Of a stretch of DNA of 22,180 nucleotides, positions 760 to 22,180 are shown one piece after another. The stretch lies in assembly GCA_025399215.1 (NCBI GenBank), contig MU621370.1, positions 1 through 22,180 on the forward strand. Direction: 5' to 3'. Under the pieces are notes generated by a model. It had not been told where the DNA came from and did no database searches. It saw only the letters and a program-made list of their open reading frames with translations. How positions within the stretch are numbered: position 1 is the stretch's first letter; each line of letters starts with the position of its first letter. A program made the translations under genes and the position numbers. Source of the DNA: Globomyces pollinis-pini. Taxonomy: Eukaryota > Chytridiomycota > Chytridiomycetes > Rhizophydiales > Globomycetaceae.

Positions 760-1611
760 ATGGGCTATGTAAGCGAACAAAAAAACTCTGGTTTGCGGAA
801 ACGAAAGCGAAATAATTCTGAAAAGCAAACGCTCAGGAAGATAAAAAACCGTCAATCAGCACAAGAGTCAAGAGACAAACAAAAGTTGTACATCAAAACG
901 CTAGAAACGACTAATGCTACTCTAATCAAGTCAAATGAAGTTTTAGTATCTAGTATTGAACAGTTAAAACTACAGAATAAGGATTTACTACAAAAATTCG
1001 CTGCTATATTAGGATTGCTAAATTCTGCTAACTCTTCGACCAACTTTTCTAATCGAACGTATGACGTGGAAAACAATATGGCATTTTCTGCAACTAGTAT
1101 ACCCCTTGTTGCTGGGGAACCAGCAGGCAATTCTTTGCTCGAGTCACTATTTAGCAGCAATACTTCATTGGATAATTGGATCTTCTCTTCCGCCTCACAG
1201 TCACTTACTATGACAGATTTTGACCTTAAAACTCCAGAGATGACAGAAACTACACTTCCATTAGACATGAACGATTTATTCAAATTTGAAGAATCTGATT
1301 TACATACTACCCCTCAAACGGCACCAGCCTATCCTACTTTCAAACTTCCAGTACCATCTCTTGATATGAAATCTGACCCAGAAGTGGTCGAATCTCCGAA
1401 GCAGATCTTATCAACCGAGATGTACTTGACGCTCGATATATTGATTCGATGTTTTCCAATGATGCTCTTTGCACATTGCAATCAAAGAATTATATGTCAA
1501 CCTTTGAAACTGGAGACAACTTTTCCTGTTTTTGGTAATCGAATATTCAAGTTTGGTCCTTCATTTCAAAAGCGATTTCCTATCTGTCATGAGCTCTTGA
1601 ATCCAAAATAA
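760..1611 (+). CDS. XBP1/HAC1-like bZIP transcription factor, copy 1 (unspliced form; Ire1-spliced form would end at 1538)
   Basis: The start at 760 is chosen because the paralogue begins at the same place relative to the bZIP; an in-frame start codon upstream at 682 would be TTG. A Lys/Arg-rich NLS (residues 13-17) precedes a basic region with the bZIP signature Asn30-x7-Arg38 in the context KIKNRQSAQESRDKQK. This resembles XBP1/HAC1 (KNR-x-x-A-Q-x-x-R-D). A leucine zipper follows at about 43-90, then a Ser/Thr-rich region with acidic and aromatic patches. Read without unusual splicing the protein has 283 residues and a basic, cysteine-containing tail. Excising 17 nt (1382-1398) between twin hairpins gives 253 residues with a tail beginning EADLINRDVLDARYIDSMF and ending FSCFW at 1538. 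Inferred role: unfolded-protein-response regulator. Another bZIP subclass remains possible, since HAC1 identity rests on the basic region plus the RNA element. Confidence 0.75.
   Translation: MGYVSEQKNSGLRKRKRNNSEKQTLRKIKNRQSAQESRDKQKLYIKTLETTNATLIKSNEVLVSSIEQLKLQNKDLLQKFAAILGLLNSANSSTNFSNRTYDVENNMAFSATSIPLVAGEPAGNSLLESLFSSNTSLDNWIFSSASQSLTMTDFDLKTPEMTETTLPLDMNDLFKFEESDLHTTPQTAPAYPTFKLPVPSLDMKSDPEVVESPKQILSTEMYLTLDILIRCFPMMLFAHCNQRIICQPLKLETTFPVFGNRIFKFGPSFQKRFPICHELLNPK
1375..1406 (+). promoter_or_regulatory. Candidate Ire1 twin-hairpin element with 17-nt unconventional intron (1382-1398)
   Basis: Two adjacent perfect hairpins are visible. The first is GACC-[CAGAAGT]-GGTC at 1375-1389 and the second is ATCT-[CCGAAGC]-AGAT at 1392-1406, with 2 nt between them. 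Both loops have 7 nt with C at position 1, G at 3 and G at 6, as in Ire1 substrates of the HAC1/XBP1 class, which are cut after the loop position-3 G. Cutting both releases AAGTGGTCGAATCTCCG, which has no GT-AG ends. The join turns G|AA into a Glu codon and enters the open frame that ends at 1538. Position 4 after each cut is A rather than the commonest C. Both hairpins are identical in the paralogue at 22133-22164. Confidence 0.65.
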
Positions 1612-1699: not shown

Positions 1700-3090
1700 A
1701 TGGAGACTCAAGAACAAACAAAACCTAAACAAAAGAAGAAAAAGTCCCTCAACGACTTTTTATCAAAATCTTTGGCAGATATCCCAAAATCACTGTCAAA
1801 ACCGTTCACTACTGGGACTAGAAGAAAGTATATTATACAAAAATACCTTGTGCTCGATGGGAAGAATTCAAAGATGACGCTGCAGCATATGTATATCCAA
1901 CAACTCCAATTAGTAGTGATATTTATTTACCTGCTACTACTGAAATCCAAGTCGATCTTGAAAGAGATGTTGGTAAGGTTATTGGAAACCACTTGGATAA
2001 CTTCAACAGAATATTCAGAGATCAAGGAAAGACATACAGATTTCGAAGCAAGGCCCCCTCTACTCAACAACAAGAAAACTCTTCCAAGCATTTTGGAGTG
2101 CCAGGCACTGTGCTCACTTTAGGTTCCAAAATTTTGTCGTTTGTTGAAGACAAGACTCCAAATGAGTTGCCAGTTAAGCATTTTATAACTGGAAAACTAT
2201 TTGACTTGTTGGAGATGTATAGAGAGGACTTACAATATCAGCAAACCGATCGAAACTATCAAGACATTGGTCGCAAGGATGTGCGAACATTAATCGATCA
2301 AGTTTATGGTTATCTGGAACTAAACAATCTAATTTATGGGTGCGTGACTTGTTACGATGTCACATATTTTCTTTGGCGACCAAAGAGAAACACCCTTCTT
2401 ATTAGTCATCCGATTGCCAATAATTCCCATTCCCCTACACTTCTTCAAGCACTGTATTACTTTGTTCAGCTTGTTTTACAGGACTATGAAAAACAATCCC
2501 GAAACCCCATGGATTCTGAAATATTTTTTAATGTCATCAAAGAAATGGATACTGACGAACATATCAGTGAAGGATCATCAGACTCAGATAGCAACTATTC
2601 AAGCATAGACAAGAGAAAAAAAACAAAATTTAATGTGAGCAAGAACAAAATACCGAAGTATAACCTTACTGTTGATGCTCTTTATGCTGGTACGGTGGTT
2701 GGATATGGAACAACTGGCCAAGTAATTAAACTCAAGGACAGCAATATTGTTGTGAAGCATTGTGATTCTTATAATAATCGCAAAGGATTCAAAATGCTCC
2801 GGAACGAAATTATAATTTACGAAAAGCTTTCCTTACTCAATTTACCATATGTTCCTCATTATTATGGAAAGTGTGAAATTCATGGGCAATATTTTGTTCT
2901 GCTGGAATACATCCCTGGAAAGCATTGTGATTGGCGAATGAGCGCTGAGCTGACGGAGAAGTTTAATTTTATTATTCGAGACTTGAATTCGATTGGTGTG
3001 GTTCATAACAACCTGAGACCATCACACGTACTTTTAACTCTTGATGGGGATATCAAATTGATTGGCTTTGGCAAAGCAAATATTAACTAA
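1700..3090 (+). CDS. Crinkler-type nuclease-fold plus kinase-like protein, catalytically degenerate, with a frameshift near 1821-1828
   Basis: The N-terminus (METQEQTKPKQKKKKSLNDF...) reads from 1700 in one frame. The remainder (KVYYTKIPCARWEEFKDD... to the stop at 3090) lies in another frame that is open from 1822. I tested GT-AG introns to join them and none gives the right phase; one missing A in the GAAGAAAG run would. The middle part (GRKDVRTLIDQVYGYLELNN, then YGCVTCYDVTYFLWRP) matches the region before the kinase in fungal Crinkler-like (CRN) proteins. The kinase-like part has a glycine loop GYGTTGQV (2701-2724) and the ATP-site Lys at 2755-2757. Catalytic residues are lost: HxD reads His-Asn-Asn (3004-3012), the catalytic-loop Asn is His (3025-3027) and DFG is Gly-Phe-Gly (3064-3072). 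It stops 7 residues after that motif. It is either a pseudokinase or a decaying gene. Confidence 0.6.
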
Positions 3091-10422: not shown

Positions 10423-11013
10423 ATGTTCTCTGCTGTAGTCCTCGCCCTTGTCTCTTCTTCCATCGCCGCTCCAGCTTATGGTTATGATAAAGCTGCTCCA
10501 GCTTACGTGACCCCAACAACAACTCCTTGTGCTGAAACTATTGCTGCCATTGCTACTCCAGCTTACAACCAAGTCGCCCCAATCACTACTGCTCCATACA
10601 ACACTGCTGCTCCAATCGTAGCAACCACTCCTTGTGAAACTCCAAACGTTTACGCGACTGCTGCTCCAATCGCTACTCCAGGTTACAACACTGCAGCTCC
10701 AATCATTGGAACTACCCCATGTGATGAATCTATCCCATACAACACTGCTGCTCCAATCGCTACCTCCACACCATGCGCTGAACCAACTCCAGCTGGTTAC
10801 GCACATGCAGCTGCCACTCTTGCTGCTGATGCTTATGGTTACAAAGCACCAGTTGCTACTCCAGGGTATGAACAAGCCGCTGCTATCGCTACTCCAGGAT
10901 ACGGATATGCTGAAGCTACCCAAGCTGCTTCCAGCTACAATGTCATCTCTGGTGCTTCCTCAAATACTTTTATTGGATCTGCAATCATGGCTATTGCTTT
11001 CTTTGCCCTATAA
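10423..11013 (+). CDS. GPI-type Ala/Pro/Thr-rich repeat cell-surface protein, copy 2 (complete)
   Basis: An intronless ORF of 196 residues. Residues 1-20 (MFSAVVLALVSSSIAAPAYG) form a signal peptide. The body is a tandem array of short degenerate units of the type APIATPGYNTAAP separated by T-T-P-C-(A/E/D) motifs, giving four evenly spread cysteines. Other than the signal and tail there is hardly a charged residue. The C-terminus (NVISGASSNTF, then IGSAIMAIAFFAL) has small residues followed by a hydrophobic tail, consistent with GPI attachment. Its codon use is strongly biased to GCT, CCA and ACT, and its GC content is above that of its neighbours, suggesting high expression. Inferred role: structural cell-wall protein, plausibly O-mannosylated. 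The 5' part is nearly identical to copy 1 at the left edge. An AATAAA lies near 11038. Confidence 0.85.
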   Translation: MFSAVVLALVSSSIAAPAYGYDKAAPAYVTPTTTPCAETIAAIATPAYNQVAPITTAPYNTAAPIVATTPCETPNVYATAAPIATPGYNTAAPIIGTTPCDESIPYNTAAPIATSTPCAEPTPAGYAHAAATLAADAYGYKAPVATPGYEQAAAIATPGYGYAEATQAASSYNVISGASSNTFIGSAIMAIAFFAL

Positions 11014-21283: not shown

Positions 21284-22180
21284 ATGAGCAATGTAAACGA
21301 GCAGAACAACTCTGGTTTGGGAAAGCGAAAGCGAGAGGATGTTGACAAGCAAACACTCAGGAAGATAAAGAACCGTCAATCAGCTCAAGAGTCAAGAGAC
21401 AAACAAAAGTTGTATATCAAAACTTTAGAAACAACAAACGCTTCTTTGCTCAAATCAAATGAACTTTTGGTGTCCAGTGTTGAGCAGTTAAAACTGCAGA
21501 ACAAGGATTTATTGGAAAAATTTACTGCCATAATGGGATTGTTGAATTCTGCAAATTCGTCCAATAGCATTCCAGCTGCGACCTATAATGGAGCAACTGT
21601 TGTGAGGACTCAAGTATCTACTGCTGAAGCAGTTGATCAAGGAAACTCTCAAGTTAGCTTTTTGGAATCTCTCTTTGCTCTGCCCTCTCCCACCGTAACG
21701 AATACCACATCAACGGGAGATACCAACTTGTCTTCATACCTTCAATCTTGTTCAGAAGTTGCTTCCGTTTCTTCAGAGACTTTGCCAAGTTCTACAACTA
21801 CTTCTGATTTGATTCCCGAGACAATACCACAAGCTACCAGCGATGCCAATCTTGAAGTGTCTCAAGTTGATCTTTGGGAAACCTTGTTTGCCCTGCCATC
21901 TCCATCAGTGACATACACTTCTTCAGTTGTTGACTCAAGCGTATCTACAGTTTGCCAATCTCCTACCGACAGTTCTTGTGAAATGAAGTCACCAGACTCT
22001 CTGGGAGCTATAACAGAACTAGACACAAGCAAATTCTTTACATTTGACGAACCTGACTTATATTCTACCCCTCAAACGGCACCAACCTATCCTACTTTCA
22101 AACTTCCAGTACCATCTCTTGATATGAAATCTGACCCAGAAGTGGTCGAATCTCCGAAGCAGATCTTATCAACCGAGATG
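21284..22180 (+). CDS. XBP1/HAC1-like bZIP transcription factor, copy 2 (3' end outside window)
   Basis: The ORF runs from ATG 21284 to the window edge (299 codons). The basic region is identical to copy 1 from TLRK to LYIKTLE, with Asn30-x7-Arg38, and is followed by a near-identical leucine zipper. Beyond residue 95 the proteins diverge. Copy 2 is longer and holds two similar acidic/hydrophobic motifs, SFLESLFALPSPTV (residues 125-138) and DLWETLFALPSPSV (196-209), where copy 1 has a single LLESLF. Many Ser and Thr residues follow. The last 116 nt (22065-22180) match copy 1 (1307-1422) with one mismatch and include both hairpins of the candidate Ire1 element. Both C-terminal alternatives lie beyond the window. 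Inferred role: unfolded-protein-response activator paralogous to copy 1. Confidence 0.75.
   Translation, partial: MSNVNEQNNSGLGKRKREDVDKQTLRKIKNRQSAQESRDKQKLYIKTLETTNASLLKSNELLVSSVEQLKLQNKDLLEKFTAIMGLLNSANSSNSIPAATYNGATVVRTQVSTAEAVDQGNSQVSFLESLFALPSPTVTNTTSTGDTNLSSYLQSCSEVASVSSETLPSSTTTSDLIPETIPQATSDANLEVSQVDLWETLFALPSPSVTYTSSVVDSSVSTVCQSPTDSSCEMKSPDSLGAITELDTSKFFTFDEPDLYSTPQTAPTYPTFKLPVPSLDMKSDPEVVESPKQILSTEM
22133..22164 (+). promoter_or_regulatory. Candidate Ire1 twin-hairpin element in copy 2 (intron 22140-22156)
   Basis: The sequence is identical to 1375-1406: a 4-bp stem with loop CAGAAGT, a 2-nt spacer, and a 4-bp stem with loop CCGAAGC. The same 17 nt would be removed. It lies in a 95-nt block identical between the paralogues, while the preceding coding region is much diverged. 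Confidence 0.6.

Follow-up and report, generated by a model that had tools for sequence, protein, structure and literature searches.

Does the bZIP gene near the left end of this contig carry an Ire1-type intron of only 17 nt, of the kind known from HAC1 and XBP1, and does its removal give the protein a new C-terminus? The window analyzed is the entire contig C281 (22,180 bp), one of 459 contigs in an 18.5-Mb genome, and it contains two HAC1-like genes, both on the forward strand. Ribosomal protein uL3 of this genome has its best PDB matches in 6uz7 and 5it7, from Kluyveromyces lactis, with further fungi ranking ahead of animals, and points to an ascomycete-like fungus; a PEX7-like WD40 protein compared with PDB carries no lineage signal. 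Exon 1 of copy 1 (760-1381) starts with the ATG at 760 and codes for the N-terminal part common to the spliced and unspliced products, consisting of 207 aa and the first nucleotide of a Glu codon that is divided between the exons. The bZIP domain lies at 817-972 (Pfam bZIP_1, 2e-8; bZIP_2, 8.6e-8) and is also matched in a genome-wide search. Copy 2 (21284-22180, with its bZIP domain at 21344-21496) runs off the contig end. Both Pfam models exceed their curated cut-offs in both copies, and neither copy is matched in NCBIfam. The bZIP domain is generic, and similarity to it does not in itself prove HAC1 orthology.

The first-pass annotation had described two adjoining hairpins with 7-nt loops, CAGAAGT and CCGAAGC, and these are located exactly as claimed. 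The 5' splice-site hairpin (1375-1389) has a stem of GACC (1375-1378) paired with GGTC (1386-1389), to which a U-G pair (1374-1390) could be added, and a loop at 1379-1385 with a predicted cut after 1381. The 3' splice-site hairpin (1392-1406) pairs ATCT (1392-1395) with AGAT (1403-1406), and its loop at 1396-1402 has a predicted cut after 1398. Cutting each loop after its third base removes the predicted 17-nt Ire1 intron (1382-1398) and shifts the reading frame. The intron is made up of 4 loop, 4 stem, 2 spacer, 4 stem, and 3 loop nucleotides, and this is close to the geometric minimum for two separate hairpins with 7-nt loops and 4-bp stems. GAAG is repeated at both junctions, and cuts after any of positions 1380 to 1384 give an identical product. 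The Saccharomyces cerevisiae Ire1 motif, as described in PMC8104961, is CNG(C/A)NGN within a 7-nt loop, cut after the third base, and both copy 1 loops match it. The A after each cut had been called unusual, but this is mistaken: the motif allows either C or A at that position, and the S. cerevisiae HAC1 3' splice-site oligonucleotide in the same source carries the loop CCGAAGC.

Following removal of 1382-1398, exon 2 (1399-1538) finishes the split Glu codon and adds 45 more codons before a TAA stop at 1536-1538, yielding a 253-aa protein with 46 new codons and the C-terminus ...KSDPEADLINRDVLDARYIDSMFSNDALCTLQSKNYMSTFETGDNFSCFW. This new frame has a stop at 1374-1376 and is open from 1377 until the stop at 1536. 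The 46-residue post-splice tail contains 8 acidic, 3 basic, and 7 aromatic residues, in agreement with the 46-codon acidic and aromatic extension that had been proposed; a Pichia pastoris HAC1 primer given in PMC2905327, translated here, has the ending DFVFFQE and is likewise acidic and aromatic. Without splicing, the bZIP frame continues through 1382-1611, with a stop at 1609-1611, and codes for a 283-aa protein. A 19-residue, moderately hydrophobic stretch is present in the unspliced frame at 1423-1479 (mean Kyte-Doolittle 1.35), and it may be a mere by-product of the shifted frame.

Of the competing explanations, the least improbable is that the hairpins are meaningless and that the gene encodes just the 283-aa unspliced bZIP protein, whose frame is open as far as 1609. 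The two frames were compared by a codon-usage model built from 30 open reading frames (ORFs; 9,847 codons, with the HAC1 copies excluded), the same ORFs also being used for calibration. Relative to base composition, the 44 exon-2 codons scored give +7.2 bits in the post-splice frame, a value that 125 of 206 true-frame windows do not exceed and that none of the 22 open shifted-frame windows, a small sample, reaches. The unspliced frame scores -1.0 bits (18 of the 206 true-frame windows are no higher, and 6 of the 22 shifted-frame windows reach it), and the third frame scores -6.8 bits. Contrary to what is expected if the hairpins are meaningless, on this background the score of the unspliced tail is close to that of shifted frames, and the score of the alternative frame is typical of coding sequence. 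With frame-1 codons of the training ORFs as the background, the post-splice frame scores 16.2 and the unspliced frame -3.9; against frame-2 codons the order is reversed (8.8 for the unspliced frame and 6.3 for the post-splice frame), and this is the one of the three backgrounds that favors the unspliced frame. A genuine post-splice frame would make the unspliced frame its frame 1, which agrees with the score of -3.9; a genuine unspliced frame would make the post-splice frame its frame 2, which disagrees with the score of +6.3. Codon usage favors the post-splice frame overall, and the tail is coding-like. Copy 1 thus has both the change of frame and a coding-like tail; copy 2 retains no more than 24 bases of its exon 2, too few for an open frame there to be informative.

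The combination of twin loops, phase shift, and new tail had also been judged improbable by chance, and counts of the loops agree with this. No other CNG(C/A)NGN loop between 700 and 1700 on the forward strand is closed by 2 or more base pairs, and no other CNGNNGN loop by 3 or more. Twins with loops no more than 60 nt apart and stems of at least 3 bp were sought on both strands of 21 sequences totaling 221,181 bp, a set that includes the window, the Ire1 and Trl1 stretches, one further stretch of contig C1, and the first 10 kb of contigs C2 to C18, and which is weighted toward the starts of large contigs and hence not a random sample. There are two CNG(C/A)NGN twins in this set, which are those of copy 1 and copy 2, and four CNGNNGN twins, of which the other two are without an open frame. 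Calculated from the density of single hairpins, and with an open frame not yet required, the chance expectation per 852-nt gene is 0.0002 twins (stem of at least 4 bp) or 0.001 twins (stem of at least 3 bp) for CNG(C/A)NGN, and 0.0007 or 0.004, respectively, for CNGNNGN, the looser form employed in the first-pass annotation. These per-gene values argue against a chance origin, although with the loosest motif (0.004 per gene) about two twins are expected over the scanned sequence. The genome-wide bZIP search gives 14 matches at an E value of 0.01 or lower among the 18 candidates scored, and a twin within 60 nt is present at 2 of these 14 loci (with flanks of up to 1.5 kb, shorter at contig ends), both of which are the HAC1-like copies.

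RNA folding offers more to the chance explanation: the stems are only 4 to 5 bp, and the bare 51-nt piece folds no better than shuffled sequences (z, 0.29; equaled or bettered by 117 of 200 shuffles). An exon-exon clamp is predicted that pairs 1347-1366 with 1409-1429, most pairs having a probability of >0.9. In the energy minimum (-22.2 kcal/mol), a possible zipper, with 1368-1375 as its exon-1 strand, pairs 1372-1375 with 1402-1405 and 1368-1369 with 1406-1407 and competes with both hairpins. The form with the twin hairpins and the clamp lies 3.6 kcal/mol above the minimum (-18.6 kcal/mol), and pairing probabilities are 0.09 to 0.14 for one hairpin and 0.02 to 0.04 for the other. With 24-nt flanks, the borders of which were picked after the fold was seen, the clamp is equaled by none of 2,000 shuffles and by 5 of 5,000 random genomic places; with 45-nt flanks it is equaled by 10 of 2,000 shuffles and by 453 or 527 of 5,000 genomic places, and with 60-nt flanks by 111 of 2,000 shuffles. 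Support for the clamp is therefore modest, and weaker with wider flanks. As a whole, the fold of 1345-1436 has a z of -1.73 (13 of 200 shuffles and 185 of 1,500 GC-matched genomic 92-mers are as good), and that of 1290-1500 has a z of -2.62 (3 of 200 shuffles are as good). The predicted zipper of the energy minimum appears to resemble the rearrangement between exons that has been put forward for XBP1 and HAC1 in work described in PMC6037481. For a bipartite 3' untranslated region (UTR) stem-loop of the S. cerevisiae type, by which the mRNA docks on Ire1, comparison of folds alone shows 94 of 200 shuffles to be as good as the native sequence at 1536-1640. No Rfam family scores above threshold anywhere in the window, and the five sub-threshold matches within 1300-1480 belong to unrelated families.

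Copy 2 has both hairpins (22133-22164), identical to those in copy 1, and a predicted intron at 22140-22156. Over their first 92 codons the two genes differ with a dS of 0.95 and a dN of 0.09, and there is zero synonymous change in codons 188 to 221, and likewise in codons 181 to 195. The copies share 95 identical bases that span the hairpins and most of the clamp and reach the contig end, a pattern in keeping with selection at the RNA level; gene conversion, or an effect of the assembly or of the contig end, may also account for it. Because the identical run extends upstream of the clamp and stops at the contig end, as conversion or an assembly effect could produce, copy 2 is not an independent witness, and its identical twin weighs against a chance origin only as a nonindependent copy. 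With the codon usage and the per-gene expectations set beside the short stems and poor local fold, we regard a chance origin of the hairpins as improbable.

The missing tail of copy 2 was not found elsewhere in the genome, as DNA or as protein, among the best-scoring candidates. A kinase-like gene located 3' of copy 1 (1993-3090 of the window) is 80% identical to a paralogue that runs exactly to the end of contig C271, and for this reason the copy 2 tail probably lies in an assembly gap. This arrangement suggests that the HAC1-like gene and its kinase-like neighbor were duplicated together in a segmental duplication. The window also contains two copies of a gene for a small, secreted-looking Ala/Thr/Pro-rich protein (MFSAVVLALVSSSIAAPAYGYDKAAPAY...), one at about 3-266 on the reverse strand, truncated by the left contig end, and one at 10423-11013 on the forward strand.

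The genome codes for both enzymes that such an intron would need, Ire1 with its kinase and RNase parts and an exon ligase. Ire1 is encoded on contig C1, and its kinase-RNase part matches yeast Ire1 chains at 2.8e-115; the ligase, kinase, and CPD domains of Trl1 are all matched, piece by piece. Counted along the alignment to 2rio/3fbv, this Ire1 has Ser, Asp, and Lys at S. cerevisiae positions 988, 992, and 1059. According to PMC8104961, Asp and Lys at two Ire1 interface positions are linked to promiscuous cleavage capable of RIDD, and the great majority of species, along with both forms of human Ire1, have a Schizosaccharomyces pombe-like interface of this type. By that rule, the Ire1 here is predicted to have an S. 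pombe-like, RIDD-capable interface. The kinase-RNase part of the gene is interrupted by three introns of 27, 28, and 29 nt (697-725, 1421-1448, and 1717-1743 of stretch L007 on contig C1), which have GTAT/GTAC donors and a TTAAT-like motif ahead of the AG and are very short spliceosomal introns.

A different account of the two overlapping frames is that they reflect error or decay, as from an assembly indel or a pseudogene, or else programmed ribosomal frameshifting. The assembly is indeed fragmented and copy 2 stops at a contig end, but the sequence here is identical in both copies, and the dN and dS values of the first 92 codons indicate purifying selection; the lack of any in-frame XXXYYYZ slippery heptamer in the frame overlap argues against frameshifting, and these explanations together are very improbable. 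The least credible proposal is that a spliceosomal GT-AG or GC-AG intron, rather than Ire1, causes the frame switch, for although very short introns do occur in this genome, as in IRE1, and a scan of 1150-1545 gives seven GT/GC-AG candidates of 15 to 150 nt with the same phase and no stops, all seven are poor when inspected by eye, none having, like the three IRE1 introns, both a GTAT/GTAC donor and a TTAAT-like motif ahead of the AG: the sole GTAC donor (1351) leads to an acceptor at 1487 that lacks the motif, and removes 137 nt together with most of the tail, the candidates from 1384 and 1387 also end at 1487, and the other four start at 1451-1496 and retain the unspliced frame until there.

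The best explanation is that copy 1 contains a functional HAC1/XBP1-type Ire1 regulatory intron in an unfolded-protein-response gene of an ascomycete-like fungus, and we put the probability of this at about 0.86. The bZIP domain, the loops, the frame switch, and the presence of Ire1 and Trl1, with no convincing spliceosomal or frameshifting alternative, support the Ire1-type reading advanced in the first-pass annotation, as judged from sequence. In ER stress, Ire1 would cleave each loop on the 3' side of its third base (1381 and 1398, respectively) and release the 17-nt piece, while the exon flanks would be held paired by the clamp (1347-1366 with 1409-1429), possibly zipping via 1372-1375 and 1402-1405. 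The tRNA ligase Trl1 would then join the exons, and the spliced mRNA would code for the 253-aa bZIP factor with the acidic, aromatic tail, replacing the 283-aa unspliced form. A search of viral and prokaryote contigs, among which fungal genes would hardly be expected, gave no confirmed relatives.

In animals, the hydrophobic segment of XBP1u directs the nascent chain, together with its mRNA, to the ER membrane. By analogy, the predicted intron could be part of a larger arrangement in which two diverged HAC1 genes have introns at a floor of about 17 nt, a hydrophobic segment of the unspliced product (YLTLDILIRCFPMMLFAHC) targets chain and mRNA to the ER, and a RIDD-capable Ire1 both splices and degrades; we consider this extended version unlikely. 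If the Ire1 regulatory intron itself is real, it would lower the known limit on the spacing of Ire1 sites that is compatible with cutting and religation, and it would provide a compact natural substrate for testing the clamp and zipper model. The gene pair also allows one to ask why this fungus retains two HAC1-like genes with a common element.

The predicted intron has features in common with each of the known systems, as these are described in the sources cited. Animal XBP1 also has twin 7-nt loops, and pairing of its exons is proposed to eject the intron (PMC6037481), but 26 nt are excised, and the ligase is RTCB instead of Trl1 (PMC4891664). S. cerevisiae HAC1 has the same 3' loop and the same cleavage motif (PMC8104961), together with a frame change to a short tail and ligation by Trl1 (Rlg1) (PMC6116095). 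It differs in that its 252-nt intron pairs with the 5' UTR and blocks translation (PMC6116095), a role that is unlikely for an intron of 17 nt. The stem-loops are close together in HAC1 of filamentous ascomycetes, as they are here, although the introns are longer (20 to 26 nt); in Verticillium dahliae, the unspliced HAC1 protein is the longer one, as here, and the gene also has a conventional intron of 53 nt (PMC8071499). Yarrowia lipolytica HAC1 similarly has closely spaced twin stem-loops, with a longer intron of 29 nt (PMC10608004). HAC1 introns in the sources covered range from 19 nt, in Candida albicans, to 848 nt (PMC6222058, PMC6116095, PMC8071499, and PMC10608004), and no HAC1/Ire1 intron of 17 nt was found in a literature search, which did not extend to the survey of Hooks and Griffiths-Jones. 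HAC1 of C. albicans, a member of the CTG-Ser1 clade, is, like copy 1 as predicted, a bZIP gene in which a very short Ire1 intron lies toward the 3' end and its removal replaces the C-terminus (PMC6222058, PMC6116095). Compared by published description, its intron is 19 nt and that predicted here is 17 nt, which would undercut the shortest intron in the literature covered.
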